Assembly: GCA_040702975.1 (NCBI GenBank)
Contig: CP159990.1
Span: 310,001 to 374,000, forward strand
Direction of reading: 5' to 3'
Source of the DNA: Roseburia hominis
GTDB lineage: Bacteria > Bacillota > Clostridia > Lachnospirales > Lachnospiraceae
DNA length: 64,000 nt
In this document: piece after piece, positions 14,317 through 33,590 of the stretch
Layout of the letters: each line of letters starts with the position of its first letter
How positions within the stretch are numbered: the first letter of the stretch is position 1
Program-made: the position numbers and the translations under genes
The notes under the pieces: model-generated
Databases searched by the model: none
The model's input: only the letters and a program-made list of their open reading frames with translations
Told to the model about the DNA's origin: nothing

Positions 14317-14868
14317 TTATATTTCCTGGTATTCTTTTATTGCGGTTTCATATAAATTATTTCCCTCACTGTCAATTACTACGATTACCGGAAAATTCTC
14401 TACCTCCAGCTTGCGGATAGCCTCAGTTCCCAAATCATCATAAGCGACCACTTCGGATTTTTTAATACATTTTGACAATAATGCACCAGCACCGCCGACT
14501 GCGGCAAAATAAACTGCCTTGTTTCTTATAATGGCATCAATGACAGCCTGGCTTCGCTTTCCTTTTCCGATCATAGCTGCCAGACCAAGATCCAGAAGTC
14601 TTGGTGCGTATTTATCCATTCTGCTTGCTGTTGTAGGCCCTGCGGAACCGATCGTGCGCCATTCTCTTGCCGGAGATGGTCCCATATAGTAAATTGTCTG
14701 TTCTGCTACAGAAATTGGAAGTTCGTCTCCCGCTGAAAGAGTCTCGTCCATCCGCTTATGCGCAGCATCCCTCGCCGTATAAATGGTTCCGCTTATATAT
14801 ACGTAATCGCCTGCTTTTAACTCCTGTGCTTTTTCTTTTGTGATTGGTGTTTGAATATGTATATCCAT
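14317..14868 (-). CDS. Fumarate hydratase / L-tartrate dehydratase type, beta subunit
   Basis: 183-residue protein corresponding to the C-terminal domain of class I (Fe-S) fumarases: GDYVYISGTIYTARDAAHKR near the N-terminus, then GPTTASRMDKYAPRLLDLG and GKGKRSQAVIDAI. With the alpha subunit encoded 111 nt upstream it should form the [4Fe-4S] hydratase interconverting fumarate and malate. The same fold is used by L-tartrate dehydratase and other hydro-lyases, so the substrate is not certain. It terminates just right of the IS110 element, which may have interrupted an older downstream context. Confidence 0.88.
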   Translation of the reverse strand: MDIHIQTPITKEKAQELKAGDYVYISGTIYTARDAAHKRMDETLSAGDELPISVAEQTIYYMGPSPAREWRTIGSAGPTTASRMDKYAPRLLDLGLAAMIGKGKRSQAVIDAIIRNKAVYFAAVGGAGALLSKCIKKSEVVAYDDLGTEAIRKLEVENFPVIVVIDSEGNNLYETAIKEYQEI

Positions 14869-14979
14869 TCCTTTACCCCTTCTCTTCTCTCAGTATGATC
14901 TCTACCAATTTTTTTACCGTCATTTTTACAATAGTATTTCCATATCTAATCTCATTTAAAAATACTCCTGATCGTATTT

Positions 14980-15822
14980 TTAAATTGTACGCACAACATG
15001 TCTGTTTACATGGCAGCAAATATTAATTCCTACCGGAAGTCCTGCAATATGCGTCGGATAGGTATTTACATTTACCGCTAAAGCAGTCGTACTTCCCCCC
15101 AGACCTCCCGGCCCGATTCCGAGCTTATTGATTTTCATAAGAAGCTCTTCTTCCAATTCTTTTACATATGGTATATCAGAATGCACACCCACTTCCCGTG
15201 TCAATGCTTCTTTTGCCATCAGTGCACATTTTTCAAATGTACCCCCTATTCCTACTCCTACTACCATCGGCGGACATGCATTAGGACCGGCATCTTTTAC
15301 TGCAGTAAGTACAGCGTCTTTTACGCCTTCAATTCCATCAGCCGGCTTTAACATAAATACACGGCTCATATTTTCGCTTCCGAATCCTTTTGGAGCAACT
15401 TTTATCTTTACTTTATCACCCTTTACTATCTTATAGTGAATAATTCCTGGTGTATTATCTTTGGTATTCTCCCGAATGATCGGATCCTTTACCACAGATT
15501 TTCTTAAATATCCCTCTACATATCCTTGTCTTATTCCCTCGTTAATGGCATCTTCCAAAATTCCTCCCTCAAAATAGACTTCCTGTCCCACTTCGATAAA
15601 TACGACTGCCATTCCGGTATCCTGACAGATGGGAATCATGTCTTCTCCGGCAATTTGCAAGTTTTCCTGCAACTGATTCAGAATTTGTTTTCCTAAAGGA
15701 GATTTTTCGGTTGAAATTGCATTTTTCATTGCAAAATCCATATCTTTCGAGAGGAAATGATTTGCTTCAATACACATTTCTTTTATGTTTCTTGTAATTT
15801 CTTCCACATTCACTACACGCAT
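14980..15822 (-). CDS. Fumarate hydratase / L-tartrate dehydratase type, alpha subunit
   Basis: 280-residue catalytic subunit of a class I hydro-lyase. Cysteines expected to ligate the [4Fe-4S] cluster lie in MIPICQDTGM, AGPNACPPM and GINICCHVNRH, and the motif KAPKGFGSENMS-like (VAPKGFGSENMSR) is conserved. The start at MRVVNVEEITRN is preferred because GTGAGGT precedes it; the frame is open upstream but without a ribosome site. Fumarase is the default reading. In this catabolic neighbourhood a hydratase acting on a related 2-hydroxy or unsaturated diacid is also possible. Confidence 0.87.
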   Translation of the reverse strand: MRVVNVEEITRNIKEMCIEANHFLSKDMDFAMKNAISTEKSPLGKQILNQLQENLQIAGEDMIPICQDTGMAVVFIEVGQEVYFEGGILEDAINEGIRQGYVEGYLRKSVVKDPIIRENTKDNTPGIIHYKIVKGDKVKIKVAPKGFGSENMSRVFMLKPADGIEGVKDAVLTAVKDAGPNACPPMVVGVGIGGTFEKCALMAKEALTREVGVHSDIPYVKELEEELLMKINKLGIGPGGLGGSTTALAVNVNTYPTHIAGLPVGINICCHVNRHVVRTI

Positions 15823-17856: not shown

Positions 17857-19449
17857 TCATTTCAATCCATTCAAATAAGGAATAATCCAGAGAAAGAGCA
17901 ATACAGATACAACAGTCAGGCTCAGAGGCAAAGAAAATATCGAAAATACTTTTGTTTTTTTTACTTGCTTTTTATCAAATTCACTATCTGGAATGATAAA
18001 GAGTTTACTTCGAGCTTCTATCTCTGCTTGTGTTATCTTTGAAGTTTTCGATCCTATTACAATTCCAAGTATACTGGCAATAACACCTATAAAAAATGGA
18101 TCAAAATACATTGGCACACTTAAATCATTGATAACCAGGAAGGATTTCATTGAAGCACTGACAAGAAATCCTAGAAGCATTCCCCAAAAAGCTCCTTTTT
18201 CTGTTATCCGTTTACTCCATACACTTGCCATTGCAACAGGAAGCCATGAACTGGCAATGATTGTCGCCCCAAGATGCGTAATCCAAAAAATCTTAGGCGG
18301 ACTGAAAATACATAGCAGGGCAATAATTGAAGAAACAACTATCATAGACAGCCTGCTAATTCGTATACTCTTATCACCAGACTTAATATTTAGAATATCA
18401 TTCGCTACATTTGATCCAATCAACGACAAAAAAGTAGTTGCCGAAGAGATTCCAGCAGCGAGCACACCTGACAAAATAATAATACCAAATACCTTTGGTA
18501 TAACATTCATTGAAGCCCAGATCAGAGCATGAGAAGGGCTCTCCAAATTCGGATTTATCTTGTGTGTAAATACCCCTGCCATGCACATTAAAAATTCTAT
18601 CATAAAAACACTGACAGTAGCAAAAATTGACGAGCGGATAACATCATGCTCACTTCTCGCCATAAGATAGCGGCTGGACTGCCAAGGAGCTACCATTAAA
18701 ACTGCCATCCATGCGATGCCATATCCAAATGCCCAGATAAGATTCTCTATTCCGCTACTGTAATTATAATTCAAATTACCATGCCAGGAAAGGATATCAG
18801 TAAGTTCTTCATATACCGCCATAGATGAAACAGTATTTATCCATCCTCCTGTCGCCCTCGAGATAAATAGTACCCCGATAATCGTTGCAATTGAAAAAAC
18901 GCCAAACATAATCGTATCCGTTATCAGCACTCCTTTAGATCCCGAAAAAATAGTAATCAAGGTAAATGTAATCGTAGTAAGAATAACACAGATTTTGTAA
19001 TCAAGCTGAGTCACAGCTTTCATTAATCCCCCTATACCCTGAACACATGAAAGCATGTATACCATCATGATGAATACACTTGTTATCGTGGCAAGCATTT
19101 TCATTCGTTTTGAGTGAAAACGTGTTCCAAAAAATTCAGGTATTGTAACAACACCACTTCTTCTGAGGTATCTTCCAAAAGCTATAGAGCCTACCATATA
19201 TCCAATAGAAAGTATTCCAACCGCAAGAATGATTGGCCCGAAAAATCCGCTGTAACATTCGCCCACATCCCCCATGAATAATCCAACGCCAATAAATGAT
19301 GCAACAAGCGAGCCGGTTATCAAAATAGCTGGGGAATTTCTTCCTGCAACATAAAAGTCTTCCGCATCTTTTACGCTTTTACTTATAATTAATCCAATAA
19401 TAATATAAATTGCCATCGTTATGCACATTCCAATAAAAAATATGTTCAT
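17857..19449 (-). CDS. Sodium:solute symporter (SSF family)
   Basis: 530-residue integral membrane protein with about 13 hydrophobic segments. It begins FFIGMCITMAIYIIIGL, with the family motif DAEDFYVAGRNSPAILITGS and SSF signature-like glycines in GVVTIPEFFGTRFHS. It should import an organic anion or sugar acid with Na+. AAGGAGG precedes the start. A 30-codon membrane peptide with its own ribosome site is encoded 65 nt upstream. Co-directional with the thiolase operon, so the transported solute may be the substrate of that pathway. The ligand cannot be read from the sequence. Confidence 0.9.
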   Translation of the reverse strand: MNIFFIGMCITMAIYIIIGLIISKSVKDAEDFYVAGRNSPAILITGSLVASFIGVGLFMGDVGECYSGFFGPIILAVGILSIGYMVGSIAFGRYLRRSGVVTIPEFFGTRFHSKRMKMLATITSVFIMMVYMLSCVQGIGGLMKAVTQLDYKICVILTTITFTLITIFSGSKGVLITDTIMFGVFSIATIIGVLFISRATGGWINTVSSMAVYEELTDILSWHGNLNYNYSSGIENLIWAFGYGIAWMAVLMVAPWQSSRYLMARSEHDVIRSSIFATVSVFMIEFLMCMAGVFTHKINPNLESPSHALIWASMNVIPKVFGIIILSGVLAAGISSATTFLSLIGSNVANDILNIKSGDKSIRISRLSMIVVSSIIALLCIFSPPKIFWITHLGATIIASSWLPVAMASVWSKRITEKGAFWGMLLGFLVSASMKSFLVINDLSVPMYFDPFFIGVIASILGIVIGSKTSKITQAEIEARSKLFIIPDSEFDKKQVKKTKVFSIFSLPLSLTVVSVLLFLWIIPYLNGLK

Positions 19450-19736: not shown

Positions 19737-20927
19737 TTATGATTCGCATTTTTTCAAATACATTGAAATTCCCTGTCCACCGCCGATACACATAGAAATC
19801 ATGGCATCTTTCTTATCTGTTCTTAGCAGCTCATAGAAAACCTTTGTCGTCAGGACTGCACCTGTGGCGCCAAGCGGATGTCCGATGGAGATACCTCCGC
19901 CGTAAATATTCACCTTTTCCATATCAAGCCCCAAATCCCTTGCAACTGCTACGGACTGGCTTGCAAACGCTTCATTGATTTCAAACATATCAATATCCTT
20001 CACATCCACACCAACTTTCTCTGCAAGCTGTTCACTTGAGTACTTTGGTGCATATCCGAAAAGCTCCGGCTCATTTCCTGCAATCAGAAAATCTACAACC
20101 TGAAGCTGTGATGTAATATTAAGCTTCTCAGCCACTTCTTTTGACATTACGACAACTGCAGAAGCCGCATCATTCAGGCTTGAGGAATTGCCGGCCGTAA
20201 CGGAGCCTGTGCCGTCTGTAACAAAGCACGGGCGGAGCTTTTTCAACATTTCCATACTCTCGTCCTCACGTGGCCCCTCATCGGTGTCAAATACAGTAAT
20301 TTTTCCTTTACGCCCCTTCACCTCAACCGGAACAATCTCTTCTTTAAACTTTCCGGCTTTGATAGCCGCAACCGCCCGTTCATGACTGCGAAGTGCAAAT
20401 TCATCCTGTTCTTCTCTGGATACATTGTATTTCTTCGCTACATTTTCGGCGGAAACACCATTGTGTTGTCCATTCAACGGCCATGTGAGAATATCGATGA
20501 CGCCGTCTTCAAAAGTTTTGTGTCCCATTCTTGCACCCCAGCGTGCGTCCTTCACGTAATACGGAAGCTGAGACAAGTTTTCCGTGCCTCCTGCTACCAC
20601 GATATCCGCATGACCGGTCTGGATTTCCATCATCGCATCTGCAATTGCCTGAAGCCCGGATCCGCACTGACGATTAACAGAGTACGCTGTTGTCTCCTTT
20701 GGCATACCTGCCTTCAGACTAATACTTCTTGCAATAAATCCATTCTCAGCGACCTCTCCGACATTACCGATAATAACTTCGTCCACGTCCTCCGGCCTAA
20801 TTCCTGCACGCTTCACTGCTTCAGCTACAACAATCGCTCCCATGTCAATAGCAGAAACCGTCTTAAGTCCACCTCCGTATGAACCAACAGCCGTTCTGCA
20901 TGCACTTACTATTACTACATCTTTCAT
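19737..20927 (-). CDS. Acetyl-CoA C-acyltransferase (thiolase)
   Basis: 396-residue cytosolic thiolase. The nucleophilic Cys is in NRQCGSG (about residue 89), the histidine in GHPLGATGA, and the second catalytic Cys in MCIGGGQG. It cleaves a 3-oxoacyl-CoA with CoA, or runs in the condensing direction. Last gene of a seven-gene operon, 18 nt after a FabG-like reductase. With a CoA-transferase and a ligase in the same unit, the catabolic (thiolytic) direction is more likely. AAAGGAG precedes the start. Confidence 0.93.
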   Translation of the reverse strand: MKDVVIVSACRTAVGSYGGGLKTVSAIDMGAIVVAEAVKRAGIRPEDVDEVIIGNVGEVAENGFIARSISLKAGMPKETTAYSVNRQCGSGLQAIADAMMEIQTGHADIVVAGGTENLSQLPYYVKDARWGARMGHKTFEDGVIDILTWPLNGQHNGVSAENVAKKYNVSREEQDEFALRSHERAVAAIKAGKFKEEIVPVEVKGRKGKITVFDTDEGPREDESMEMLKKLRPCFVTDGTGSVTAGNSSSLNDAASAVVVMSKEVAEKLNITSQLQVVDFLIAGNEPELFGYAPKYSSEQLAEKVGVDVKDIDMFEINEAFASQSVAVARDLGLDMEKVNIYGGGISIGHPLGATGAVLTTKVFYELLRTDKKDAMISMCIGGGQGISMYLKKCES

Positions 20928-20945: not shown

Positions 20946-21692
20946 TTATACAATCATTCCGCCACCTACATTAATCACTTCAGAAGTGACATAAGCAGCC
21001 TCGTCAGAAGCCAGAAATGCCACCATATTTCCCACGTCCTCCGGTTTTCCGGCATATCCTGCAGGAATGCGCTTCAGCATGCTGTCCCATGCTGTACCGC
21101 CATTGACTTCTTTTAGCTTCATAGTCATATCCGTCTCAATAAATCCGGGACAAATGACATTGCAGGTGATTCCTTTGCGGGCATTCTCCCGCGCTGCCGT
21201 CTTCGTAAGCCCGACTACGCCAGCCTTTGCTGCCGCATAGTTAGCCTGTCCGACATTGCCAAGCCAGCTTCCCGAAGAAATATTGATAATGCGGCCATAC
21301 CCCTTCTCACGCATGTATTTTACGGCTTCCTGCGTTCCATAAAATGTTCCGGTCAAATCAACATCGATGACTATATTCCAGTTTTCCACTGGCATCTTGT
21401 GAAGCATCCCATCCCGATTAATCCCTGCATTATTCACCATGATGTCTAAAGTGCCGTAGGTGTCGACCGCAAATTTTACCAAAGCCTGCATTTCCTCTTG
21501 TTTTGCCACATTGACTGTAAATGCACATGCTGTTCCGCCATATTCCTCAATTTCTTTTACCGTCTCATCTGCCGGAATCATATCGGCTGCAACTACCTTT
21601 GCCCCTTCCTTCGCAAGTTTTACAGCAATACCTCTCCCAAGACCTCTTCCTGATCCTGTCACAATCGCAACTTTATTCTCTAATCTCATCAT
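20946..21692 (-). CDS. SDR family oxidoreductase (FabG / acetoacetyl-CoA reductase type)
   Basis: 248-residue short-chain dehydrogenase. Nucleotide-binding TGSGRGLGRGIA near the N-terminus, NNAG at about residue 90, the active-site Ser in INISSGSW, and YAAAKAG with the catalytic Tyr and Lys. The C-terminus GGGMIV is typical of FabG/PhaB proteins. Between the CoA-transferase and thiolase genes, the likely task is interconversion of a 3-hydroxyacyl-CoA and 3-oxoacyl-CoA with NAD(P). Spacing is 27 nt upstream and 18 nt downstream. Confidence 0.9.
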   Translation of the reverse strand: MMRLENKVAIVTGSGRGLGRGIAVKLAKEGAKVVAADMIPADETVKEIEEYGGTACAFTVNVAKQEEMQALVKFAVDTYGTLDIMVNNAGINRDGMLHKMPVENWNIVIDVDLTGTFYGTQEAVKYMREKGYGRIINISSGSWLGNVGQANYAAAKAGVVGLTKTAARENARKGITCNVICPGFIETDMTMKLKEVNGGTAWDSMLKRIPAGYAGKPEDVGNMVAFLASDEAAYVTSEVINVGGGMIV

Positions 21693-21719: not shown

Positions 21720-23312
21720 TTATTCATCATTTTCCTTCGCCATAATCATATCCTTCATTCCGACCGGTCCGGCGCTAAACAAATTCACATCCATGAGTTT
21801 GAGATTTTCGGCTATAATCGGTCTGAAATCCATCATGTCCAACACCTGAGTCTGTAGATCTACACCCGGCGCGATTTCAATCAGTTCTACACCTTCCGGA
21901 ATTAACCTAAATACTGCACGCTCTGTCACAATATATACTTTTTGCATTTTCTCTCTGGAGAGTGCTCCGTTGAACGAATACTGCGCCACACGAGATACCA
22001 TTTTACGGATTCTGCCTTCCCTTACAATATTCAGTTTTCCTCCTTCAAAGGAAAACTCACAGCCGGCTGCAGTAAAGGTTCCACAGAATACAACCTTCTT
22101 TGCATTTTGTGTAATATCAATAAATCCGCCGCAGCCCGTACATTTCGGTCCCATTTTTGTGGCGTTAACATTCCCCTCACCGTCCAGTTCTCCAAAGCCC
22201 ATGAAGGTAATATCCACCCCCGCGCCATTATAATAATCCATCTGCTCATGATGTCCTATCATGGCATATAGGTTCCGCCCAATACCAAAATCAATCCCGC
22301 CAGCCTGTACACCTCCGTAAATGCCCGACTCCACGGTAATCATAATCTCGTCGTTGATATCCTCCTCCGCGCTGATATTCCCAATGACATCATTAGGAAT
22401 TCCGGTTCCCAGATTGATTACACAGCCCGGATAGACTTCCTCAATCGCCCTTCTGCCGATAAATTTTCGAACATTCATAGGCAATGGTTCAATCGCATTC
22501 TGCGGCACTCTTGCCTGGCCACTATAGGAAGGATCAAATACCCATGAAGATGTCTGCCTGTGATCGATTTCCGGATTCTCGCAAATCACAATTCCGTCAA
22601 TAAATACACCGGGCACAGTGACGTTTTTAGGATTCAGCGTACCGGTCTGGACAACTCGTTTTACCTGTGCAATAACCTTTCCTCCATTTCGTTTTGCTGC
22701 CATGACTGCCGGAAGCACCTCCAGCTTCATAGCTTCCTCCTCTGTCGTGAAATTGCCCATCTCATCACATTGTGTGCCCCGGATAATGCACACATCAATC
22801 GGAATCTCTTTATAGAACATATAAGGCTCTCCGTGATAATCCAAAATTTCCACAAGGTCTTCCAAAGATTTTGTACGTCCATTCATTTTCCCACCCTCGA
22901 AACGCGGATCTACAAAGGTTCCAAGGCCAACCTTTGACATCTTCCCCGGGAGGCCGCAGGCCATACTCCGATAGAGCTGTGCGATTTGTCCCTGGGGCAG
23001 ACAGTATGCTTCTACTTTATTATTGGCAATCATTTCCATCCATCTTGGCTGTAATCCCCAATGGGATCCAATGATTCTTTTCACAAGCCCTTCATGAGCG
23101 AAATGCTGAATTCCGTCCTTTCGGTCGCTCTGCCCACAGGAATGAAGCAGAGTGATTCCCCTGGGATGTCCTGTATCCAAAAATGACTGTTCGATTGCTT
23201 TCAATATGGACTCACTGGCACTTACCAATGTCATGCCAATCGGGCAGACAGTCATACCGTCCTTAATATACCCGGCTGCCTCCTGTGGAGTAATAAAATT
23301 CGCTTTTATCAT
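21720..23312 (-). CDS. Acyl-CoA:acetate/3-ketoacid CoA-transferase (fused alpha-beta, YdiF/Pct type)
   Basis: 530-residue family I CoA-transferase with both halves fused. The alpha half has the GGxNG-like oxyanion region, and the beta half carries the catalytic glutamate in ITVESGIYGG (about residue 325) and GLGTGIPND-like glycines (INLGTGIPND). It moves CoA between acetyl-CoA and another carboxylate such as propionate, lactate or a keto acid. It begins 3 nt after the acyl-CoA ligase gene, so two independent routes for making the CoA ester are encoded together. Confidence 0.9.
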   Translation of the reverse strand: MIKANFITPQEAAGYIKDGMTVCPIGMTLVSASESILKAIEQSFLDTGHPRGITLLHSCGQSDRKDGIQHFAHEGLVKRIIGSHWGLQPRWMEMIANNKVEAYCLPQGQIAQLYRSMACGLPGKMSKVGLGTFVDPRFEGGKMNGRTKSLEDLVEILDYHGEPYMFYKEIPIDVCIIRGTQCDEMGNFTTEEEAMKLEVLPAVMAAKRNGGKVIAQVKRVVQTGTLNPKNVTVPGVFIDGIVICENPEIDHRQTSSWVFDPSYSGQARVPQNAIEPLPMNVRKFIGRRAIEEVYPGCVINLGTGIPNDVIGNISAEEDINDEIMITVESGIYGGVQAGGIDFGIGRNLYAMIGHHEQMDYYNGAGVDITFMGFGELDGEGNVNATKMGPKCTGCGGFIDITQNAKKVVFCGTFTAAGCEFSFEGGKLNIVREGRIRKMVSRVAQYSFNGALSREKMQKVYIVTERAVFRLIPEGVELIEIAPGVDLQTQVLDMMDFRPIIAENLKLMDVNLFSAGPVGMKDMIMAKENDE

Positions 23313-23315
23313 TCA

Positions 23316-24957: not shown

Positions 24958-25731
24958 CTATTTCCCCATAAATCCTCCGTCTACAGGAATAACTGCTCCG
25001 GAAATATAGGCGGCCGCATCGGAAGCCAGAAAAACGACTGTTCCCTGAAGATCCTCCATATTTCCCCAACGCCCCATCGGGATTCTGGAAGTAATCTCCT
25101 CATACTGTTTTGGATTCACTTCCTTCATATTTGCCGTCAACTCTGTCGCCATATATCCCGGTGCAATCGCATTGACAGTCACTCCGCTTGAGGCCCACTC
25201 ATTAGACAAAGCTTTTGTTATCTGTGCTACGCCGGCTTTGCTGGCACTATAGGCAGGAATCAACACGCTCGCAAAATATACCGTCATAGAAGCAACATTG
25301 ATGATTCTTCCATAATTCTGTTTCAGCATAGTACGTCCTGCAAGCTGCGACATGTAGAATACTGCGCTCAGATTAATATCCAGTATTTTCTGCCATTTAT
25401 CTGCCGGAAAATCAACTGCCGGACAACGATACTGAATTCCCGCGCCATTCAGGAAAATATCTACTCGTCCCCCCAGCTTTTCCAGACATTCTTCATACAC
25501 ATTTTTCAGTGTTTCCGGCTTGGACAAGTCACCCTTTACCGCATGGACTTTGGCTCCAACTGCACCCATTTTGGCTGCGGATTCCTCTACCATGTCCATA
25601 ATATCCAAAAGTACTACCTCGGCACCTGCATCATGTAGTGCCTGGGCCATTCCATTGCAGAGCCCCCTTGCGCCGCCGGTTACAATAGCTTTTTTTCCTT
25701 CCAAACTGAATTTGTTTATAAATATATTCAT
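24958..25731 (-). CDS. SDR family oxidoreductase resembling KduD (2-deoxygluconate 3-dehydrogenase type)
   Basis: 257-residue short-chain dehydrogenase. The glycine motif TGGARGLCNGMA, LNGAGIQ in place of NNAG, and YSASKAG are in order. The C-terminal half (NEWASSGVTVNAIAPGYMAT, RIPMGRWG, PVDGG) closely follows the KduD/2-keto-3-deoxygluconate 5-dehydrogenase pattern. It follows the IclR gene, and an RpiB/DhuI-like isomerase precedes that gene. In uronate catabolism such an isomerase-dehydrogenase pair acts on 4-deoxy-5-keto-uronate. Here the partners are CoA-handling enzymes, so the substrate may be a related deoxy sugar acid. Confidence 0.85.
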   Translation of the reverse strand: MNIFINKFSLEGKKAIVTGGARGLCNGMAQALHDAGAEVVLLDIMDMVEESAAKMGAVGAKVHAVKGDLSKPETLKNVYEECLEKLGGRVDIFLNGAGIQYRCPAVDFPADKWQKILDINLSAVFYMSQLAGRTMLKQNYGRIINVASMTVYFASVLIPAYSASKAGVAQITKALSNEWASSGVTVNAIAPGYMATELTANMKEVNPKQYEEITSRIPMGRWGNMEDLQGTVVFLASDAAAYISGAVIPVDGGFMGK

Positions 25732-25768: not shown

Positions 25769-26527
25769 TTAGCTTAAGTGACTTTCACAGCCCAACTCTT
25801 CGCTGATCAGGCGGCTGTACTTTTTCATACAATGTACATACTTTTTTATATTTTCTTTTGTCATCTGCTCTTTCGGTACAGAAATTCCCAGACAACTATT
25901 GACATTCCTGCCGTAATGGAAAATAGGGACTGCCACGCAGCACACTCCCTGCGAAAACTCTTCGTTATCCAGTGCATAACGCTGTTCCCGTATCTTTTCC
26001 AGTTCTTCCTTTAACTCCTCATAAGTCGTAATTGTGTTAGGTGTGTATTTTTTGAATTCGTAGTCATGAAAGATTTCTTCAATATAGGATTGTGATTTAA
26101 AAGCCAACAGGCATTTTCCCACAGAGGAACAATGCCACGGCTCAATCATTCCGATTTGAGCCGAAATATTGTACGGCTTGTGGCTCAGAATCTGATCCGC
26201 AATATACATCTTACGATTTCCCAAAGTTGCCAGATGAACGCTTTCCTTTACCTCATCACAGATCATATGTATATAAGGCCGCGCCACATTGACAATATTA
26301 AAATCTTTCTTGACTCCCTCGCCAAGGTACATCAGCCGAAAACCCAAACGATACTTTTTATTTGACGGATTAATGCTGACCATATCATACTGCATCAATG
26401 TTGACATAAGCCGGGAAACCGTGCTTTTATCAACATCAAGAACTTCAGCAATTTCAACGATCGTCGCACTTTCTCTTTTCTGAAGTAACAACAGTATTTC
26501 AATACCTCTTGCCAATGACTGTACCAT
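25769..26527 (-). CDS. IclR family transcriptional regulator
   Basis: 252 residues. An N-terminal winged helix-turn-helix (ATIVEIAEVLDVDKSTVSRL, about residues 21-40) is followed by the IclR effector domain with SSVGKCLLAF and the C-terminal QGVCCVAVPIF. KdgR, the uronate regulator, belongs to the same family. It lies inside the operon between the isomerase and the KduD-like gene (12 nt and 37 nt gaps), so it probably controls its own operon in response to a pathway intermediate. The operator was not identified. Confidence 0.92.
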   Translation of the reverse strand: MVQSLARGIEILLLLQKRESATIVEIAEVLDVDKSTVSRLMSTLMQYDMVSINPSNKKYRLGFRLMYLGEGVKKDFNIVNVARPYIHMICDEVKESVHLATLGNRKMYIADQILSHKPYNISAQIGMIEPWHCSSVGKCLLAFKSQSYIEEIFHDYEFKKYTPNTITTYEELKEELEKIREQRYALDNEEFSQGVCCVAVPIFHYGRNVNSCLGISVPKEQMTKENIKKYVHCMKKYSRLISEELGCESHLS

Positions 26528-26539: not shown

Positions 26540-27169
26540 CTATTTCGTATTATTCAACAATTCAAATACCTTCTTTGCCTTTTGTGATCCATCTTTTAGG
26601 ACCTTCATAAATTGTTCGCAATCTGCAATTGTTTTCAAAATTTCCGGATCTGAATCTTTTAGGATATCCATAAAATCTTTGTGAGAAATTCTCGAAATAT
26701 CAGACAATATACGGCGACTTTGCTGCTGACTTTCTGCTCTTTCCTTCGGATACCCTCCTTCTGCAGGATCTGCGAACAATTTTTCAAAAATGTATCTTAA
26801 ATTGACATTTCCAGCCCATCCATACCCTTTATTCAAGGGCAATGAGATACAGTTTCCTCCGTTAATCTGTGAAAAAAGCCAGGCGTCCAACGGGTCGACA
26901 ATTAATCCACATGTCACTCCTGGAAATTGCAGAACAGCGTTTAGGAATCCCTGCCCGGTTCCGCAGCCGCTAATCACAAAATCACAGCATCCGGTATTTA
27001 GGAGGATTGCCGCTATGTAACTGGTATGAATGTAGGTCAAAGACGGCGCCTGCTGCGGACTCTGCATTCCAATATTGATTACCTCCGCGTCTGTAGACTG
27101 ATGCAGTGCATTTACAATATCCTCATTCTTAGGTGAAGCACTTACTTCATTGATAACTGCTATCTTCAT
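26540..27169 (-). CDS. RpiB/LacA/LacB family isomerase, DhuI-like
   Basis: 209 residues. The RpiB core shows INEVSASPKNEDIV at the N-terminus, CDFVISGCGTGQGF with the conserved Cys/Gly active-site loop, and FPGVTCGLIVDPLDAWLFSQ. It is longer than ribose-5-phosphate isomerase B (about 150), and the C-terminal extension with GGYPKERA matches the subgroup found with unsaturated-uronate genes (4-deoxy-5-keto-uronate isomerase, DhuI). First gene of the tight operon. The likely reaction is aldose-ketose isomerisation of a deoxy-uronate; the exact substrate is inferred only. Confidence 0.8.
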   Translation of the reverse strand: MKIAVINEVSASPKNEDIVNALHQSTDAEVINIGMQSPQQAPSLTYIHTSYIAAILLNTGCCDFVISGCGTGQGFLNAVLQFPGVTCGLIVDPLDAWLFSQINGGNCISLPLNKGYGWAGNVNLRYIFEKLFADPAEGGYPKERAESQQQSRRILSDISRISHKDFMDILKDSDPEILKTIADCEQFMKVLKDGSQKAKKVFELLNNTK

Positions 27170-27243: not shown

Positions 27244-27849
27244 TTAGCGGGCAAAATTCGTATAAACGCGCTCTTCGGGGCAGCCGGACAAGACGGGCTG
27301 CTTTAACATAACCGCCATATTCCGTCCCAAGGTCCGCATCACCTGTAACCCCTCCTGATCCTGCTCCACATCTTCAGGATTTAACCCATGAACGCTGTTC
27401 CAGTATACAGATGGAACTACCGGCATCTGATTAATCGTAAAGTATTTGTTAAGCCGATCAAACGTTGCACTGGCTCCACCCCGCCGGCAACTGACGACTG
27501 CACAGGCAGGTTTTCCTGCAAGCATCTCACCAGCGGAAAAGAATACCCGGTCAAGCAGAGCACAGAGGCTTCCGTTAGGTCCCCCATAATATACTGGAGA
27601 TCCGACTACCACTCCATCAGCATCCTTTAACAGATTCAACAGATTCAGATAAACTTTATCCCGGTATACACACATGCCTTCCTCACAAGCGCCACAGCCA
27701 GTACAACCCTGCATCGGTTCTGTACCTAGCAGAAAGGTCTCCGTCTCTACACCATTCTCCCTGAGAGTTGTTTCTACCTCTCGTAATGCCCGTCTTGTGC
27801 AGCCTTCAGAATTTGGACTGCCACATATAAGAACAACTTTTTTTCCCAT
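27244..27849 (-). CDS. NADPH-dependent FMN reductase-like flavoprotein
   Basis: 201 residues with a flavodoxin-like fold: VVLICGSPNSEGCTRRAL (phosphate loop), the cysteine motif GCTGCGACEEGMC (about residues 49-61) typical of iron-sulfur flavoproteins of the WrbA/ISF type, and VVGSPVYYGGPNG. It probably reduces a small molecule or supplies electrons. 74 nt upstream of the isomerase gene and in the same direction, so it may be co-transcribed. Its specific role is unknown. Confidence 0.85.
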   Translation of the reverse strand: MGKKVVLICGSPNSEGCTRRALREVETTLRENGVETETFLLGTEPMQGCTGCGACEEGMCVYRDKVYLNLLNLLKDADGVVVGSPVYYGGPNGSLCALLDRVFFSAGEMLAGKPACAVVSCRRGGASATFDRLNKYFTINQMPVVPSVYWNSVHGLNPEDVEQDQEGLQVMRTLGRNMAVMLKQPVLSGCPEERVYTNFAR

Positions 27850-27960: not shown

Positions 27961-29469
27961 CTAACTGGGTTTAGCAACCATCAGAACTTCAACTTCGTCT
28001 CCTTCTTCTTCAACTTCCCCTTCGACCTCTTCCCAACCTCTTGGGACATTTATGTTCAATGCTGTCAAGATAATATTGACAATCGGAGGAATATAGGCAC
28101 AAAAAGCAAACGGAATCCATCCCCAAGTCCATTGACCATTCATTAATAAAGAAGTTGCATATGCGCCAGTAGCCCCCCAGGGAACCCAAATGGTTGACAA
28201 CGAACTTCCTTCAGCAACAGTACGTGCAAAAACTACCCTGGAAAGATTATTTTTCTTGAACATATTCCTATAGATTTCGGTAGTCAGAAGAACTGATACA
28301 TAAGAGGAAGCGCTAAGGCAACCTGCAAATACACCGGAAATAGTACAAATAGTAACAAGTGCAACAGGCTTGTGAATATTTTCCGTGATGCCTCCCAAAA
28401 TCACCTCAAGCATATTCATTCGGGAAATGGCTCCTGCAAAAAGAAATGCCATGAACAACATAATTACCAATCCACCATTAACGGTAAATCCACCCTGTGA
28501 CAGCATCTGGTCAATAAATTCATTGCCAGTGTGAGCTATATAGCCATTCCAGCATGCGCCTAATGAAGTAAGCAGATCTTCACCCTGAATACTTACACCG
28601 AGAACCAAGGCCAACATGGAACTAATCACATAAGTCGGTACCGGATCAATTTTAAAATACAGCAACACGATAAAAATTAGCAGAGGTAACAATACTATAA
28701 AACTAAGGTTAAAATTAGAACTCAATGAAGACAAAATTGTAGAAACATCGCTGATATCTGCTTCAACGTTGACTTCAATACCCATACCGACAATCGCAAA
28801 AAGAATCGTAGAGACAACAAAGGAAATTACAGAAGTAGGGATCATATTGACCCATACCTTGACTGGCTGTGTGCGCGTAGTTGCACAAATAAGATTGAAG
28901 GTATCCACCAGAGGAGACCACCGGTCAGAACTCATACATGCACAAATAATTGCAGCAGCAGAATAAATAACCGGAACTCCCAGCGCATTACCTACATTAA
29001 CCAGCGCTAGACCCATTGTAGCCATTGTTCCCCAACCATTACCAGTCATAACAGCAGTTAAAAAACATGCAACAAAAGTAATCGGAAGATAAGTTGCCGG
29101 AGTCAGAAATTTCAGGCCGTAGTACATAAAAAACGGTACTGTACCGGACATCATCCAAGTCGCCTGAACCACGCCGCACAATAAAATAATATAATAGATT
29201 GGGAAAACGGAATTTCCCTGTTTTAAAGCAGAATTCCAAAAATCATCCCAGGAATAACCCAATACAAATATACCGTAGAGAATCAACAATGCAGCAGCAA
29301 TAGCAAGCCCCATTCCGGTACCCAGCCCCCAGATTAAATTATTAACAACCAGAATAATAACACTCAGCAACAGCAGAATAATTGCCTCCAGTTTAGTGAT
29401 TTTTCTGTGTTTTCTTTGTTTGTCAGGAATATTTTTTTCGATTTTCCTTTTCTTATTCAAAATGCTCAA
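27961..29469 (-). CDS. NhaC family Na+/H+ antiporter
   Basis: About 502-residue membrane protein with a cytoplasmic basic N-terminus, about 11-12 transmembrane segments, and NhaC-type motifs MTGNGWGTMATMG and SSYVSVLLTTEIY. The C-terminal tail is unusually acidic (EEVEGEVEEEGDEVEV). I prefer a TTG start because GGAGGTG lies six bases before it. The ATG five codons upstream overlaps that site and has none of its own. Some members exchange organic acids with Na+ (for example malate/lactate), so it may be a pathway transporter. Confidence 0.88.
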   Translation of the reverse strand: MSILNKKRKIEKNIPDKQRKHRKITKLEAIILLLLSVIILVVNNLIWGLGTGMGLAIAAALLILYGIFVLGYSWDDFWNSALKQGNSVFPIYYIILLCGVVQATWMMSGTVPFFMYYGLKFLTPATYLPITFVACFLTAVMTGNGWGTMATMGLALVNVGNALGVPVIYSAAAIICACMSSDRWSPLVDTFNLICATTRTQPVKVWVNMIPTSVISFVVSTILFAIVGMGIEVNVEADISDVSTILSSLSSNFNLSFIVLLPLLIFIVLLYFKIDPVPTYVISSMLALVLGVSIQGEDLLTSLGACWNGYIAHTGNEFIDQMLSQGGFTVNGGLVIMLFMAFLFAGAISRMNMLEVILGGITENIHKPVALVTICTISGVFAGCLSASSYVSVLLTTEIYRNMFKKNNLSRVVFARTVAEGSSLSTIWVPWGATGAYATSLLMNGQWTWGWIPFAFCAYIPPIVNIILTALNINVPRGWEEVEGEVEEEGDEVEVLMVAKPS

Positions 29470-29570
29470 ATAATTCACCTCCATACAGTGTGATTAACCA
29501 TAAACAAAATTCAATTTTTCATTCCAGTGATTTTTCCAACCCTATATAATTTTGATAAAATACTTTTATC

Positions 29571-29644: not shown

Positions 29645-30469
29645 TTATTTAATCAAGTTCCACATATTTTCGCCCATAATTTTCTCTTTATCAGAATCAG
29701 ATATTTTTGAGTTGTTCATCACAAGGTCAACATGATATTTAATATTACAGAGTGGCTCTGTAGGATAATCAGTACCAAATAGAATCTTATCAGCACCAAT
29801 ATATTTCACTGCCTTTGTCAAAAGATCCATATCTACCAGTTCTATTTCCTTTAATGCCGCAATACCCACATAGACATTCGGATTTTTCCATGCAACGTTC
29901 ATGGCTTCCTTAAACCACATTCCAAAAGGAAAACTACCCATATGCTCAGCGATAATCGTCAGGTTTTTAAAACGGCTTGCTACTTCATCAAGATAGATCG
30001 GATTGGAATATTTAATCAGACCGCCATTCTCGCCGCCAGTATGAATTACTACCGGAACACCCAACTTTTCCGCACATTCATAGAATGGATAAAGGCTTTC
30101 ATCATTCGGATAAAAGAATTGTGTAGGAGGAGTAATCTCTCCAATTCCCTTAAGACCGAGCACTTTAATAGCATATTCCATCTCTTCTATCGCCTTTTCA
30201 CCCTCGGTAGGATCTACAGCAGCAAATCCAATAAAACGTCCATTGGATTTTTTACAAAAATCTGCAATCTCTTCATTAGAAATAGTAAATTTAGCAGTCT
30301 TAAGCCCAAGTAATATGCCTTTATCCACACCGCCTTCATCAAGTGCGTGGATCATCCCCTCCATTGACAGGTCAACATTCTGATACCATTCTTTCTTTGC
30401 TCCTTTTGCGCCATTTACCCAATCGGCCGGAATCTGTTTAAACGGGTGAATATGAGCATCAATAATCAT
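29645..30469 (-). CDS. Amidohydrolase family protein (TIM barrel, Amidohydro_2)
   Basis: 274-residue hydrolase starting IIDAHIHPF, which gives the HxH metal site. Later metal-ligand candidates are the histidine in VVIHTGGENG, the histidine in TIIAEHMGSF, and the aspartate in LFGTDYPTE. Relatives include metal-dependent decarboxylases and lactonases (ACMSD/PDC-lactonase group). I start at MIIDAHIH, with GAGAGG eight bases upstream. In the operon after a Gfo/Idh/MocA dehydrogenase, a lactonase acting on an oxidised sugar or cyclitol lactone would fit, but this is inference. Confidence 0.85.
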   Translation of the reverse strand: MIIDAHIHPFKQIPADWVNGAKGAKKEWYQNVDLSMEGMIHALDEGGVDKGILLGLKTAKFTISNEEIADFCKKSNGRFIGFAAVDPTEGEKAIEEMEYAIKVLGLKGIGEITPPTQFFYPNDESLYPFYECAEKLGVPVVIHTGGENGGLIKYSNPIYLDEVASRFKNLTIIAEHMGSFPFGMWFKEAMNVAWKNPNVYVGIAALKEIELVDMDLLTKAVKYIGADKILFGTDYPTEPLCNIKYHVDLVMNNSKISDSDKEKIMGENMWNLIK

Positions 30470-30525
30470 AATTTTTTCCTCTCTTTCTTTCAAAACATTG
30501 AATCATCATTTTCCGATAATTATAA

Positions 30526-31662
30526 TTAATATTTGTCGGTAGCTTCACTAACTTTAACTACACGGTTTTCTGCAGCAGATTGATAAGCGGCCTTGATAAC
30601 TTGAAGGAGCTTTTTGCCGTCCTCTCCACTGCAACTTGGTTCTCTATCTTCAAGCACAGCATCTGAAAATTCCTTATTCTCGAACTTAAATGCAGCAGTA
30701 TATCCGCATTCAAGATTCTCATAAGAGATAGATGTTCCATCTTTATAATGAATCAATGGTGCTTTCATTTGGAGTCTTCCCTCAACTCCATTAAGCCAGA
30801 TTACACCTTTGTCTCCGATAATTTCTACACGATCGTCGAACGGTGAACCACCTGTTTTTGAAATGCTTAACGGAGCTCCGAAATGCTCGTCGAAGCTGCC
30901 GACTGCATACGAATCAGCATATTTAAAAGCTGTGACCGAACAATACTCTCTGTCTGTGACTCCATCATTTGCATATTTGATTATGCAGGAAATTTCCTCG
31001 ATTTCTCCTCCCAAATACCTGGCAACAGCAAATCTGTGATGCCCACAATCGTAGAATCTTCCTCCACCCATTTTGCAAGAATCAAATCTCCAATCACCGG
31101 TAGCTGTCAGTTTGTTAGCCAAGCCATAGTATCCGTGGAAAGCATCTGAGAATTTCTCCGGATCGTCCGGAAACATTGGACCAGTTCCTTGTCCGAGAGT
31201 TACCCGGACCATCGTCAAATTACCAATTTCACCATTTTCAATCAATTCTTTCGCCTTCATAACAGACGGATCAAACACACAGTTTTCAAGAAGCATCAGT
31301 TTTACATCTTTCGCTTTAGCTGCTGCAATCATCTCATCTGCATCAGACAATTTTGTAGCAAAACATTTTTCAACGCCAATATGTTTTCCTGCATTTGCCG
31401 CATCAATTGTCATTTGCCGATGAAGATGATGAGGAGTAAGCACAAACACAGCATCTACTTCATCATCACCAAGCATATCATGATAATCCGTATATAATTT
31501 TGATATGCCTGTAACCTTACCCCATTTCTGTAAAAGTTCTTCTTCTGTATCGCATAATGCTACCAGAACACCATTGATTTCTTCAGCGTGATCCATATAA
31601 GCTCTGATATGATGCTTTGCAATCATACCTAACCCAATTAGTCCAATACGTACTTTTTCCAT
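30526..31662 (-). CDS. Gfo/Idh/MocA family oxidoreductase
   Basis: 378 residues. The N-terminal Rossmann fold has GLIGLGMIAKHH. The usual EKP catalytic lysine motif reads VEKCF (Pro replaced by Cys), and the C-terminal substrate domain has FYDCGHHRFAVARYLGG with the conserved Asp and His. Family members oxidise a ring hydroxyl of sugars or inositols with NAD(P); the inositol 2-dehydrogenase IolG is one. 47 nt after the IolD-like gene and 56 nt before the amidohydrolase gene, hence one operon. The specific substrate is unknown. Confidence 0.88.
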   Translation of the reverse strand: MEKVRIGLIGLGMIAKHHIRAYMDHAEEINGVLVALCDTEEELLQKWGKVTGISKLYTDYHDMLGDDEVDAVFVLTPHHLHRQMTIDAANAGKHIGVEKCFATKLSDADEMIAAAKAKDVKLMLLENCVFDPSVMKAKELIENGEIGNLTMVRVTLGQGTGPMFPDDPEKFSDAFHGYYGLANKLTATGDWRFDSCKMGGGRFYDCGHHRFAVARYLGGEIEEISCIIKYANDGVTDREYCSVTAFKYADSYAVGSFDEHFGAPLSISKTGGSPFDDRVEIIGDKGVIWLNGVEGRLQMKAPLIHYKDGTSISYENLECGYTAAFKFENKEFSDAVLEDREPSCSGEDGKKLLQVIKAAYQSAAENRVVKVSEATDKY

Positions 31663-31709
31663 CTTTTCTCTCCTATTTTTTTCATTTTCTATTTTCAGTT
31701 TTACATCAA

Positions 31710-33590
31710 TTAGAAACCTATCGTATGCTTGAGATTTTGAACTCTCTCACACCAATTTCCCACATTCCAATCTCCAAAGGTTCCAAGACCTCCCATCTCA
31801 TCCCTGCCGAAATATACAGGAACATGTACCAAGGACAGTCCATCATACTCGTATGCCTGTTCCAGAGCTTTTTTCAATTCCTCCACAGATTCCCCGCCAT
31901 AAAAGCCTTTTACTCCTTTAATAGACTCTGCCATCTTCACATAATCTACTACGACCTGATCGTCTGTCCTGAATTCTACGTCATACTGATTGTACTGAAG
32001 GCTTGTGATAGCTCCCATACGCCGGTTGTCAAAAACGACGATCATACCCTTAAGTCCATACTGAGCTCCATCTATCAAAACCTGCGGATTCATCATAAAA
32101 CTTCCGTCACCGCTGAAAGCTATCGGATAATCCCTTCCTCCTGCAAGTGCAAATGCAAGCGTCGAGGATACTGCAAATCCCATATAGGAAGACCCCGTGT
32201 CTGTGATTGTCTGCTTGGGTTTCTCATCAGTTACAATCTGAAATCCATTTGCCTGAACGTCTCCTGCATCAAATATCTTCACACATTCATGAGAATCGGC
32301 AAAATCCACTACTGTCTTAATCGCAGCAGGTTCTGTGAGAATCAGTTTCCCATACTTCTCGTCATATAGAACAGGGTTGTCATATCTTAATTGTTTGTAT
32401 GCCTCCCACTCTACGCGTTTCTTCATACATTCTTTCAGCCACTTTGAATCGGACGCTCTATTTTCTGCTGCCTTCAAAAGTTCAATCAGCCGCAAAAGGA
32501 CTTCTTTTGCATCTCCTTGTATCCGAATCGAATTACTATACTGCCCCAGATCATCATAATCGCAGTTAATATTGATAATCTTCTTAGATTTTCTAAGCGC
32601 TGTTCCTGAGCTGTCCCACTGACAGACACCTCTGGCCCCAACAGCGATAAACAAATCACACTCGTTCATGGCAAAGTTTCCGCAAATGGAGCCTTTAGAA
32701 CCACCAACACTCATATGACGCTTTTTAGAAGCCGGATACAGTCCCGGAACCTGGAGTCCCTGCACATAAACGGCATCCGTAAGCTCTAAAAACTCCTCCC
32801 AAACTTCCTCAGGAACATTGGAAGCTCCACCTCCTGCTTTTACCGTAATTCTGGAGGCATTACAAATAGCATTTACAGCAGCTTGATAAATATCCATATC
32901 AACGCTTACAACCTTTGATTCCTCAGACTTTTCCGGAAATTCCAACAAATTGCAGCCTTTTATGATTTTGGGCTGGATATTCATCGGAAGCAGCATATAG
33001 AACGGGGATCGTTTAGCCTTTCCATTCACTGCAACATCGCCTCTCTTCAGTGCGGTAAACACAGCTTCCGCAGTATGCAGCGAATATGCCGGGCCAAAAG
33101 TTGACAAAACCTTTAAAAACAGCTCCTGCTCCCTTCTTGGAATCTGCTGCATGTTTGGCCCTTCACTTTGACTGGTTTCATCACCCATCAAATAATAAAT
33201 ACCAAGGCCATTAGACAATGGAACCAGTGATCCTGCCGCCGCCTGCATAGCTCCTGGCCCTATAGATGTAAACACTGCAGCGGCTTTTCCGTATTTCCAT
33301 CTCAGCATAGATGCCACATGAGAAGCCTCTACCTCATTTCGAACATTGATCGTTTTTACCACATTTTCTTCTTCATATATACGAAGCACTTCTCCAACAT
33401 CCGTCGTTCCATGTCCAAAAATACCTATAAATGTTCTTACATCCTGATTTGCCAATCCAAGAATAACCGCCTCACTAAGGCTAATATCCTGAAATTGTTC
33501 CAAGCCGCCTATTTCCACAGCTTTTCGGATTGTACCATAAGTTTTAATCCCTCTGGCACGCTTTCTTCTTTGTTCAATTTTTTCGTCCAT
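31710..33590 (-). CDS. IolD-like thiamine diphosphate enzyme (cyclohexane-1,2-dione acylhydrolase type)
   Basis: 626-residue ThDP enzyme. The catalytic Glu lies in NVRNEVEASHVA (about residue 87), followed by SIGPGAMQAAAG. The C-terminal ThDP-Mg motif is FSGDGSFMMNPQ ... FDNRRMGAI. Overall length and the segment GIFGHGTTDVGEVL, YYLMGDETSQSEGPNMQQIP resemble IolD, which opens the ring of 3D-trihydroxycyclohexane-1,2-dione to 5-deoxyglucuronate. It differs enough that another cyclic dione is possible. First gene of its operon, followed by a Gfo/Idh/MocA dehydrogenase and a hydrolase. Confidence 0.8.
   Translation of the reverse strand: MDEKIEQRRKRARGIKTYGTIRKAVEIGGLEQFQDISLSEAVILGLANQDVRTFIGIFGHGTTDVGEVLRIYEEENVVKTINVRNEVEASHVASMLRWKYGKAAAVFTSIGPGAMQAAAGSLVPLSNGLGIYYLMGDETSQSEGPNMQQIPRREQELFLKVLSTFGPAYSLHTAEAVFTALKRGDVAVNGKAKRSPFYMLLPMNIQPKIIKGCNLLEFPEKSEESKVVSVDMDIYQAAVNAICNASRITVKAGGGASNVPEEVWEEFLELTDAVYVQGLQVPGLYPASKKRHMSVGGSKGSICGNFAMNECDLFIAVGARGVCQWDSSGTALRKSKKIININCDYDDLGQYSNSIRIQGDAKEVLLRLIELLKAAENRASDSKWLKECMKKRVEWEAYKQLRYDNPVLYDEKYGKLILTEPAAIKTVVDFADSHECVKIFDAGDVQANGFQIVTDEKPKQTITDTGSSYMGFAVSSTLAFALAGGRDYPIAFSGDGSFMMNPQVLIDGAQYGLKGMIVVFDNRRMGAITSLQYNQYDVEFRTDDQVVVDYVKMAESIKGVKGFYGGESVEELKKALEQAYEYDGLSLVHVPVYFGRDEMGGLGTFGDWNVGNWCERVQNLKHTIGF

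Follow-up and report, generated by a model that had tools for sequence, protein, structure and literature searches.

A modular gene cluster of Roseburia hominis joining an uncharacterized thiamine diphosphate enzyme family to a deoxyribonate-type lower half, with a predicted C5 acid intermediate

Genomic organization of the cluster

A 64,000-nt stretch of the Roseburia hominis genome (GCA_040702975.1, contig CP159990.1, 310,001-374,000; referred to below as the window, in whose numbering its features are given) carries on the minus strand a gene cluster with a core formed by a thiamine diphosphate (ThDP) enzyme (31710..33590), a predicted C-C lyase or hydrolase, and an RpiB/DhuI-like isomerase (26540..27169). 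An initial annotation had arranged these genes in two groups; its gene list, strand and positions, as well as the 3-37 nt intergenic gaps of the second group, are borne out by the open reading frames (ORFs). Besides the ThDP gene, the first group contains a Gfo/Idh/MocA-family dehydrogenase (30526..31662), assigned by family match and a candidate for the entry oxidation, and an Amidohydrolase_2 family enzyme (29645..30493). In the second group, the isomerase (232 bits against NCBIfam PRK09273, cut-off 137) is followed by an IclR-family regulator (25769..26527; best NCBIfam models KdgR and BhcR, both under cut-off), a KduD-like short-chain dehydrogenase/reductase (SDR; 24958..25731), which is a predicted keto-acid reductase, an AMP-forming acyl-CoA ligase (23316..24941), predicted to act on a 2-deoxy-pentonate, a YdiF/FadX-type CoA-transferase (21720..23312), predicted to release a C3 acid from its CoA ester, a FabG-like SDR (20946..21692), a predicted 3-hydroxyacyl-CoA dehydrogenase, and a thiolase (19737..20927). 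Three further genes are of uncertain membership: an NhaC/ArcD-type antiporter (27961..29484) and an SSF sodium/solute symporter (17857..19449), both identified by family match and possible substrate carriers, and an NADPH-dependent FMN reductase-like protein (27244..27849) that was missing from the initial list.

From the ThDP gene to the thiolase gene all ORFs are encoded on the minus strand and are separated by 3 to at most 160 nt, and a scan of 17000-35500 placed no minus-strand terminator-like site inside these gaps (23 such sites on both strands of the scanned region versus 12.3 expected). As initially annotated, neither an acyl-CoA dehydrogenase nor an enoyl hydratase, nor any of IolB, IolC, IolJ and IolA, is found among the 16 annotated proteins of 14317-33590, IolB, IolC and IolJ not having been searched genome-wide.

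The family assignments differ in precision. At 306 bits, the FabG-like SDR passes one of the FabG models (PRK05653.1-3, cut-off 296), whereas the KduD-like SDR falls under both KduD cut-offs (267 vs 339 bits for TIGR01832, and 274 vs 369); orthologues of the latter, 81-84% identical, share a locus with the ThDP gene in four related loci (L025-L028). The best solved relative of the isomerase is gbs1892 (1.9e-57), which we take to be DhuI of S. agalactiae; through this match, DhuI probably belongs to the PRK09273 family as well. The amidohydrolase has two close homologues (70 and 66% identical), one of them apparently from the same genome as a relative of the ThDP enzyme (P0005) and of the ligase (P0132), the next being at most 41% identical. 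Its named solved relatives are decarboxylases, and lactonases also occur in the amidohydrolase superfamily; it may therefore be either a lactonase or a decarboxylase. Relatives of the MocA dehydrogenase lie near the ThDP gene in L028, L042, L043 and L085.

Family assignment and distribution of the ThDP enzyme

The ThDP enzyme had initially been described as IolD-like. Its score against the IolD model (TIGR04377) is only 135.7 bits at a cut-off of 715. Scores of up to 253.8 bits are reached by other ThDP enzymes encoded in this genome, of whose proteins none exceeds the cut-off; against acetolactate synthase (TIGR00118) it scores 147.6 bits at a cut-off of 538. A tree of 36 rows, comprising 21 family members, two true IolD and 13 others, places the 21 family rows in a single 100/100 clade with a long stem, apart from IolD and the others, and two of the nine genomes searched hold a true IolD alongside the family ThDP enzyme. 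The window enzyme is ~23% identical to the two IolD rows. It has in common with them the histidine of a G-H-G motif (H60; 12/12 family rows and 2/2 IolD), a residue with a catalytic role. Four fragments, from among seven rows that we labelled acetolactate-synthase-type (a label supported by an IlvD gene in 18/20 of the control loci described below), cover this place, and all four have Y-P-G-A or Y-P-G-G instead. A later G-D motif is likewise common to the family and IolD, and does not occur in the acetolactate-synthase-type rows compared.

We conclude from these comparisons that the enzyme is a member of an uncharacterized family of its own, neither IolD nor acetolactate synthase. The former identity is ruled out by the score and the separate clade, the latter by the score, the tree and the absence of H60 from the acetolactate-synthase-type rows; the initial annotation had itself named placement with acetolactate synthases as an argument against its reading, and the enzyme lies outside these rows. 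What stands of the IolD likeness is the histidine: because both this residue and the G-D motif are common to the two families, the enzyme may act in the manner of IolD although it is not an IolD. A fold search was not decisive, its 50 best rows including acetohydroxyacid synthases, glyoxylate carboligases, hydroxyacyl-CoA lyases, pyruvate oxidases and cyclohexane-1,2-dione hydrolase.

Of 7999 candidates scored in a protein search, 4914 had E <= 1e-60; among the 120 matches listed, relatives are 48-87% identical and come from several phyla, and five bear database names such as IolD-type acylhydrolase or acetolactate-synthase-like. A scan of genome contigs revealed 365 encoded relatives, of which the best 80 loci, many of them shorter than 20 kb, were analysed together with the window (81 loci in total). 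Their sources include Lachnospiraceae, Anaerotruncus, Spirochaetes, Chloroflexi, Planctomycetes, Actinomadura and Alphaproteobacteria, including HIMB114 and Pelagibacteraceae. The distribution is patchy, since relatives at E <= 1e-120 are almost absent from samples of the genus (1/8 genomes), family (2/397) and class (1/391), the window's own genome being counted. Our literature search found no paper on the family or the gene set, and as far as it reaches the pathway variant is apparently undescribed.

Linkage of the two gene groups

The initial annotation had treated the two groups as parts of one pathway and had regarded failure to co-occur elsewhere as evidence to the contrary; in other genomes they do co-occur. 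A Mediterraneibacter locus (L026) has the order RpiB-IclR-ligase-CoA-transferase-FabG-thiolase-ThDP-Zn-dehydrogenase-XDH-DASS-KduD, where XDH denotes a xanthine dehydrogenase-type Mo-hydroxylase, and a locus of Blautia An249 (L028) the order ligase-CoA-transferase-FabG-thiolase-RpiB-KduD-ThDP-MatE-AraC-GPH-type carrier-MocA-DUF4147/MOFRL. In L025, ThDP, XDH, RpiB, IclR and KduD genes are accompanied by a ligase gene at the contig end; in genome G148, contig C24 carries ThDP, RpiB, IclR and KduD, and contig C13 carries ligase, CoA-transferase and FabG close to its end. Since the groups are co-located in L026 and L028 and are present on two contigs of G148, gene context indicates that they are functionally linked. 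Five source genomes seem common to the ThDP and ligase matches (97 and 57 of the 120 listed rows compared). The RpiB/DhuI-like isomerase occurs in 36 of the 81 ThDP loci as opposed to 0/20 acetolactate-synthase-type control loci, which places the linkage above chance.

Plasmid-borne members of the family have other partners. A sugar-type ABC importer and the order IclR-MocA-ThDP-SSADH-IlvD, with relatives of MocA and a succinate semialdehyde dehydrogenase-like enzyme (SSADH), are found on plasmids of Labrenzia and of two Sinorhizobium strains, the Sinorhizobium records being without annotation at the locus and their genes labelled by similarity. A Phaeobacter piscinae plasmid has IclR-Zn-dehydrogenase-XDH subunits-TctC-TctB-TctA-ThDP-SSADH-IlvD, and a Salipiger plasmid IclR-ThDP-hydroxyacid dehydrogenase-heme-binding-like protein-sugar phosphate isomerase/epimerase-TRAP-SSADH-IlvD. 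Carriers in relatives thus include the acid carriers DASS, Tct and TRAP as well as sugar-type ABC and GPH carriers.

Two other neighbours of the ThDP gene may be mentioned. A pantoate-beta-alanine ligase gene, probably a chance neighbour, shares the locus in L062 (2030-2899; the domain was checked in this locus only), L044, L047 and L076. A bacteriorhodopsin-like gene follows the dehydratase gene in the HIMB114 locus L089 (15199-15948), and genes of the same cluster occur in L078 and L091.

Exchange of entry and exit modules

Across the 81 loci we counted RpiB in 36, IclR in 31, transketolase in 29, MocA in 28, XDH in 17, IlvD/EDD in 16, the Zn-dehydrogenase in 14, a GPH carrier in 13, SSADH-like in 10, methylmalonate semialdehyde dehydrogenase (MMSDH) in nine, BKACE in four and thiolase in three. 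Length-based ORF picking lost the ThDP frame in six loci (L045, L069, L071, L083, L084 and L087), which were kept in these counts. The MocA cluster counted is at best 35% identical to the window's MocA and leaves out the latter together with its related group in L028, L042, L043 and L085.

Three pairs never co-occur in the 81 loci: MocA with XDH, RpiB with IlvD, and transketolase with IlvD. Fisher tests over the 61 loci of at least 12 kb, which are phylogenetically non-independent, gave P = 6e-5 for RpiB and IlvD (0, 29, 13, 19) and P = 2e-4 for MocA and XDH. Conversely, IlvD accompanies SSADH in 10/10 loci, RpiB accompanies MMSDH in 9/9 and transketolase does so in 8/9, and all four BKACE loci also have RpiB and an ADP-forming acyl-CoA synthetase. 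XDH is found on two separate ThDP branches, one of Lachnospiraceae and one of Alphaproteobacteria rows, and IlvD-bearing rows too fall in more than one clade. By these patterns, MocA and the Mo-hydroxylase exchange as entry modules, and on the exit side RpiB, accompanied by transketolase, BKACE or thiolase, exchanges with a sugar-acid dehydratase. The pattern fits a single aldehyde that is either oxidized or isomerized.

As controls we used 20 acetolactate-synthase-type neighbourhoods from genomes of the same bacterial family at the same score thresholds. None of them contained RpiB, transketolase, XDH, SSADH, MMSDH, BKACE, the ligase or the thiolase above threshold (0/20 each). One control locus (L170; G084, 83-13422) had MocA and CoA-transferase over the threshold; a cupin, an SDR and a more distant BKACE (35%) of this locus scored below it. 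Its ThDP enzyme is ~24% identical to that of the window and also has G-H-G. The locus also contains CoA-transferase-subunit-like ORFs (one read by eye), a glycerate kinase and a sugar ABC importer; its CoA-transferase shares 42% identity with that of the window, and its MocA 67% with that of Blautia.

The deoxyribonate-type lower half

A search of a plasmid collection with the window ligase returned four records at E <= 1e-60, three of them from Klebsiella, of which two (L159 and L160, K. pneumoniae) were opened. Both encode ligase, CoA-transferase, FabG, thiolase, an MFS carrier, an SMP-30 lactonase, a second MFS carrier and a glycerate kinase, and in one of them an insertion sequence element follows the thiolase gene. 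In gene content, and in order as judged by locus-tag numbers, they match the K. michiganensis cluster which the excerpts of Price et al. 2019 (PMC6365646) describe as important for deoxyribonate use by mutant fitness. The route proposed in the same excerpts leads from deoxyribonyl-CoA through 3-keto-deoxyribonyl-CoA to acetyl-CoA and glyceryl-CoA. All four components of this module (ligase, CoA-transferase, FabG-type dehydrogenase and thiolase) have homologues in one operon of the window, in the same order: compared with L160, and thus with K. pneumoniae proteins rather than the K. michiganensis genes themselves, the CoA-transferase is 61%, FabG 56%, thiolase 51% and ligase 35% identical. We accordingly predict, from homology and gene order, that the ligase-to-thiolase set of the window is active on a 2-deoxy-pentonate.

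Glycerate kinases are found at two related loci. In Blautia L028 a DUF4147/MOFRL gene, presumably encoding glycerate 2-kinase, directly follows the MocA gene, and the window's genome encodes, in trans, a DUF4147 product 69% identical to it. The glycerate kinase of L170, near MocA and BKACE, is of the PF02595 type, unrelated to DUF4147, and 70% identical to a protein of L136 (488 bits).

Proposed pathway and carbon number

Most likely, the acid that enters thiolysis is a 2-deoxy-pentonate of five carbons, from which acetyl-CoA and glycerate would be formed, rather than a C6 acid derived from inositol. This is suggested by the homology to the Klebsiella deoxyribonate-type module together with the glycerate kinases beside L028 and L170, and C5 is favoured over C6 also by the MMSDH and transketolase partners in relatives. 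Thiolase, BKACE and MMSDH all act on acids with CH2 or CH next to the carboxyl. With an MMSDH such as that of L051 (586 bits, cut-off 448.5), a C5 compound HOOC-CH2-CHOH-CHOH-CHO would be converted by RpiB and transketolase to malonate semialdehyde, a substrate of the MMSDH type. Where SSADH and IlvD/EDD are present instead, the C5 acid would be taken to 2,3-dihydroxyglutarate and on to 2-oxoglutarate without an aldolase; the dehydratase scores 773 bits against PRK06131 (cut-off 539) and 657 as L-arabinonate dehydratase, under the cut-off of 882, and no PF01081 match was found in HIMB114 (G153).

A whole C5 catabolic pathway around the uncharacterized ThDP enzyme is the best explanation of these data, and we give it roughly even chances of being correct. 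At the sequence level it is supported by the linkage of the genes, the exchange of modules, the distinctness of the ThDP clade, and the homology and order of the deoxyribonate-type module; the individual reactions, the number of carbons and the succession of the upper steps are what we infer. In this pathway, the MocA dehydrogenase would oxidize a sugar-like substrate and the amidohydrolase would perhaps open a lactone, after which the ThDP enzyme would cleave a C-C bond to yield an aldehyde-acid with CH2 next to the carboxyl, most likely 3,4-dihydroxy-5-oxopentanoate (4-deoxy-penturonate) or an equivalent C5 compound. The RpiB/DhuI-like enzyme would isomerize the aldehyde to a ketone, which the KduD-like SDR would reduce to the 2-deoxy-pentonate. 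The latter would be converted by the ligase to its CoA ester, oxidized at C3 by FabG and split by the thiolase into acetyl-CoA and glyceryl-CoA, from which the CoA-transferase would free glycerate; a candidate for the glycerate kinase that would then act on it is encoded outside the cluster in this genome. Isomerization, reduction or oxidation, CoA activation, oxidation and thiolysis remain the likeliest order, in support of the initial annotation, with a C5 acid favoured over a C6 inositol-derived acid; in sum, the interpretation given there is partly supported. The weakest part of our proposal is the step from C6 to C5, which may proceed by loss of CO2, e.g. from an oxidized hexuronate (C6H10O7 - 2H - CO2 = C5H8O5); for the loss of a neighbouring hydroxyl, phosphoketolase offers a precedent.

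Several observations weigh against the C5 proposal. Besides the phylogenetic non-independence of the module counts, there is an exception outside the 81 loci: in Sinorhizobium mexicanum (L169) an XDH-like ORF is located ~4 kb past the MocA operon. The IlvD association counts for little, because IlvD beside a ThDP enzyme is normal (18/20 controls), and L170 is a parallel cluster around another ThDP enzyme. None of the ORFs in the 80 related loci matches the NhaC, SSF, FMN reductase or amidohydrolase protein, the ligase shares no more than 35% identity with its Klebsiella counterpart, and a glycerate kinase gene lies near only one (L028) of the three loci with a full ligase-to-thiolase set, and not in the window or L026. 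Finally, the sugar-type ABC importers of relatives would fit the uptake of a neutral compound, from which CO2 is not easily lost, and do not favour the hexuronate step.

A broader reading can be offered only tentatively: a new class of ThDP enzymes would produce a C5 2-deoxy aldehyde-acid from an oxidized sugar or sugar acid, without kinase or aldolase, and serve as a plug-in hub in Lachnospiraceae, Spirochaetes, Chloroflexi, Planctomycetes, Alphaproteobacteria (including Pelagibacteraceae records) and Actinomycetes. Such a hub would combine C-C cleavage and loss of oxygen, several entry modules with carriers of their own, and four exits, namely 2-oxoglutarate, malonate semialdehyde plus a C2 unit, BKACE and thiolysis.

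Alternative explanations

The alternative that survives best starts from an acid of the unsaturated-uronate type, such as 4-deoxy-5-hexosulose uronate (DHU), 2-keto-3-deoxygluconate (KDG) or a stereoisomer. RpiB and KduD would act first, in a manner resembling DhuI and DhuD, whose chemistry is described in the excerpts of PMC12838403; the ThDP enzyme would then decarboxylate a 3-deoxy-2-keto acid to 2-deoxyribose or an analogue, which MocA and the amidohydrolase would convert to deoxyribonate. We consider this unlikely, even though each enzyme would keep to the chemistry typical of its family. The relation of the isomerase to gbs1892, presumably DhuI, and the best (albeit sub-threshold) score of the IclR regulator against KdgR both fit it, as does the absence of any overlap between MocA and XDH in the 81 loci, if these are interchangeable aldose oxidases. 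According to the excerpts of PMC6365646, moreover, a Mo-dependent enzyme of P. simiae oxidizes deoxyribose, and deoxyribonate has been proposed to form from KDG and peroxide.

On the other hand, GH88 was not found in the window's genome and exceeds its cut-off in only 3/12 cluster genomes. The aldolase of 2-keto-3-deoxy-6-phosphogluconate (KDPG) is encoded in 9/12 cluster genomes, including three genes outside the cluster in the window's genome, one of which lies between an IclR gene and an ORF resembling a sugar kinase by eye (L154); in G148 and G150, KDPG aldolase and GH88 genes are a few kb apart on one contig. KDG thus seems to have an outlet already, the aldolase being common and located near IclR and kinase genes or GH88, and a plain DHU/KDG pathway is weakened by these results. 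The KduD-like SDR stays under the KduD cut-offs, and neither MocA nor XDH is annotated in the Salipiger cluster. KdgF was also considered as an identity for the cupin encoded in the BKACE loci; the cupin motif, HxH...E...H, differs from that of KdgF, and this candidate was rejected.

Quite unlikely, in our view, is the route favoured by the initial annotation, in which a cyclitol is oxidized, its ring opened to a C6 5-deoxyuronate, and the product isomerized, reduced or oxidized, activated with CoA and thiolysed to acetyl-CoA and a C4 acid. A single ring opening would explain an aldehyde and an acid in one product; His60 of the G-H-G motif is common to IolD, the MocA relatives score best against IolG, though under cut-off, and relatives have a Zn-dehydrogenase resembling threonine dehydrogenase and IolM as well as sugar-type ABC and GPH carriers. 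Against this stand the acid carriers DASS, Tct and TRAP of other relatives, the two genomes in nine with a true IolD in addition to the family enzyme, and the lack of an IolE match in the window's genome (E <= 0.001) or G153. IolE is over cut-off in only 1/9 genomes searched, and for want of a match the classic inositol pathway was rejected for the window's genome. The glycerate kinases, the deoxyribonate-type lower module and MMSDH point to C5; a cyclitol may still be the first substrate, fitting the upper enzymes but not the C5 end. A chance adjacency of an acetolactate-synthase-like group with a hydroxy-fatty-acid or 3-hydroxybutyrate operon, for which the generic ligase, FabG, CoA-transferase and thiolase families and the 74-160 nt gaps between the groups might speak, is highly improbable and largely refuted by the recurrence of the same enzymes in different orders in other genera (L025-L028) and on separate contigs of G148, by the 0/20 controls and by the separation of the ThDP clade from acetolactate-synthase-type rows.

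Flanking features

Two loci at the 14317-17613 end of the region are not linked to the pathway by anything we observed: a pair of genes for a two-subunit fumarase-type hydro-lyase (14317-15885), adjoined by an IS110-family transposase gene on the plus strand (12754-14154), and an AAA-ATPase_like/PD-(D/E)XK_9 gene (15964-17613). The latter has relatives (24-25% identical) elsewhere in the genome (L140, 14406-16088; L155, 11444-13153 and 15129-16835), which suggests a mobile or expanded family. At positions 35430-37885 a pair of ORFs overlap in different frames; beta-helix domains are found in the downstream ORF, and the pair may be one frame-broken surface protein gene. Upstream of the cluster, positions 37904-38389 encode a 161-aa piece of an AP_endonuc_2 TIM barrel (IolE/epimerase superfamily; profile positions 97-246 of 249), perhaps a remnant. 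A minus-strand rRNA operon occupies positions 1-4629 in the order 16S - 5S - tRNA-Ile - tRNA-Ala - 23S, with the 5S gene (2914-3031) between 16S and 23S.

Comparison with known systems

The cluster appears to represent a conserved, modular pathway variant that connects a new family of ThDP enzymes with a lower half of the deoxyribonate type. Names of the IolD-type or acetolactate-synthase-like kind would mislead predictions of inositol and amino-acid pathways in gut and marine genomes. If correct, the C5 proposal would describe a kinase- and aldolase-free sugar-acid pathway tied to deoxyribonate chemistry and an enzymatic source of 2-deoxy-pentonates. The excerpts of PMC6365646 ask for natural substrates and trace deoxyribonate to deoxyribose that is oxidized non-specifically, to DNA damage and to KDG reacting spontaneously with peroxide. 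The modules give predictions that can be tested in culturable bacteria.

The inositol-to-propionate pathway of Anaerostipes resembles the present case in its occurrence in gut Clostridia, an IolG-like enzyme and a CoA-transferase; unlike it, that pathway uses IolE, IolD, IolB, IolC, IolJ and acyl-CoA dehydrogenases and makes propionate, according to the excerpts of PMC8355322. IolD itself, the 3D-(3,5/4)-trihydroxycyclohexane-1,2-dione hydrolase, has in common with the window the ThDP domains, the G-H-G histidine, the G-D motif and a MocA dehydrogenase nearby, whereas IolE, IolB, IolC and IolJ of the inositol pathway are not among the annotated genes of the cluster. The DhuI-DhuD and KduI-KduD pathways have a like combination of RpiB-type isomerase, KduD-type SDR and an IclR regulator that scores best as KdgR, and differ in that the window cluster is without a KDG kinase or aldolase. 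The deoxyribose/deoxyribonate (BKACE) pathway of P. simiae is paralleled by L060, L062, L064 and L076, where BKACE occurs with RpiB and ThDP genes, by BKACE and glycerate kinase in L170, and by XDH as a counterpart of its Mo-dependent oxidase; it differs in the upper part, where a ThDP enzyme and an isomerase take the place of direct deoxyribose oxidation.

The closest parallel is the Klebsiella deoxyribonate cluster. In the excerpts of PMC6365646 it uses deoxyribonate directly and comprises MFS carriers and an SMP-30 lactonase, and the 19.5-kb Klebsiella stretches, whose gene table is incomplete, contain no ThDP enzyme, RpiB, KduD or MocA among the annotated genes. With the window it shares the order ligase - CoA-transferase - FabG - thiolase at the identities given above, and its glycerate kinase has a counterpart in the glycerate-2-kinase-type gene of Blautia L028.

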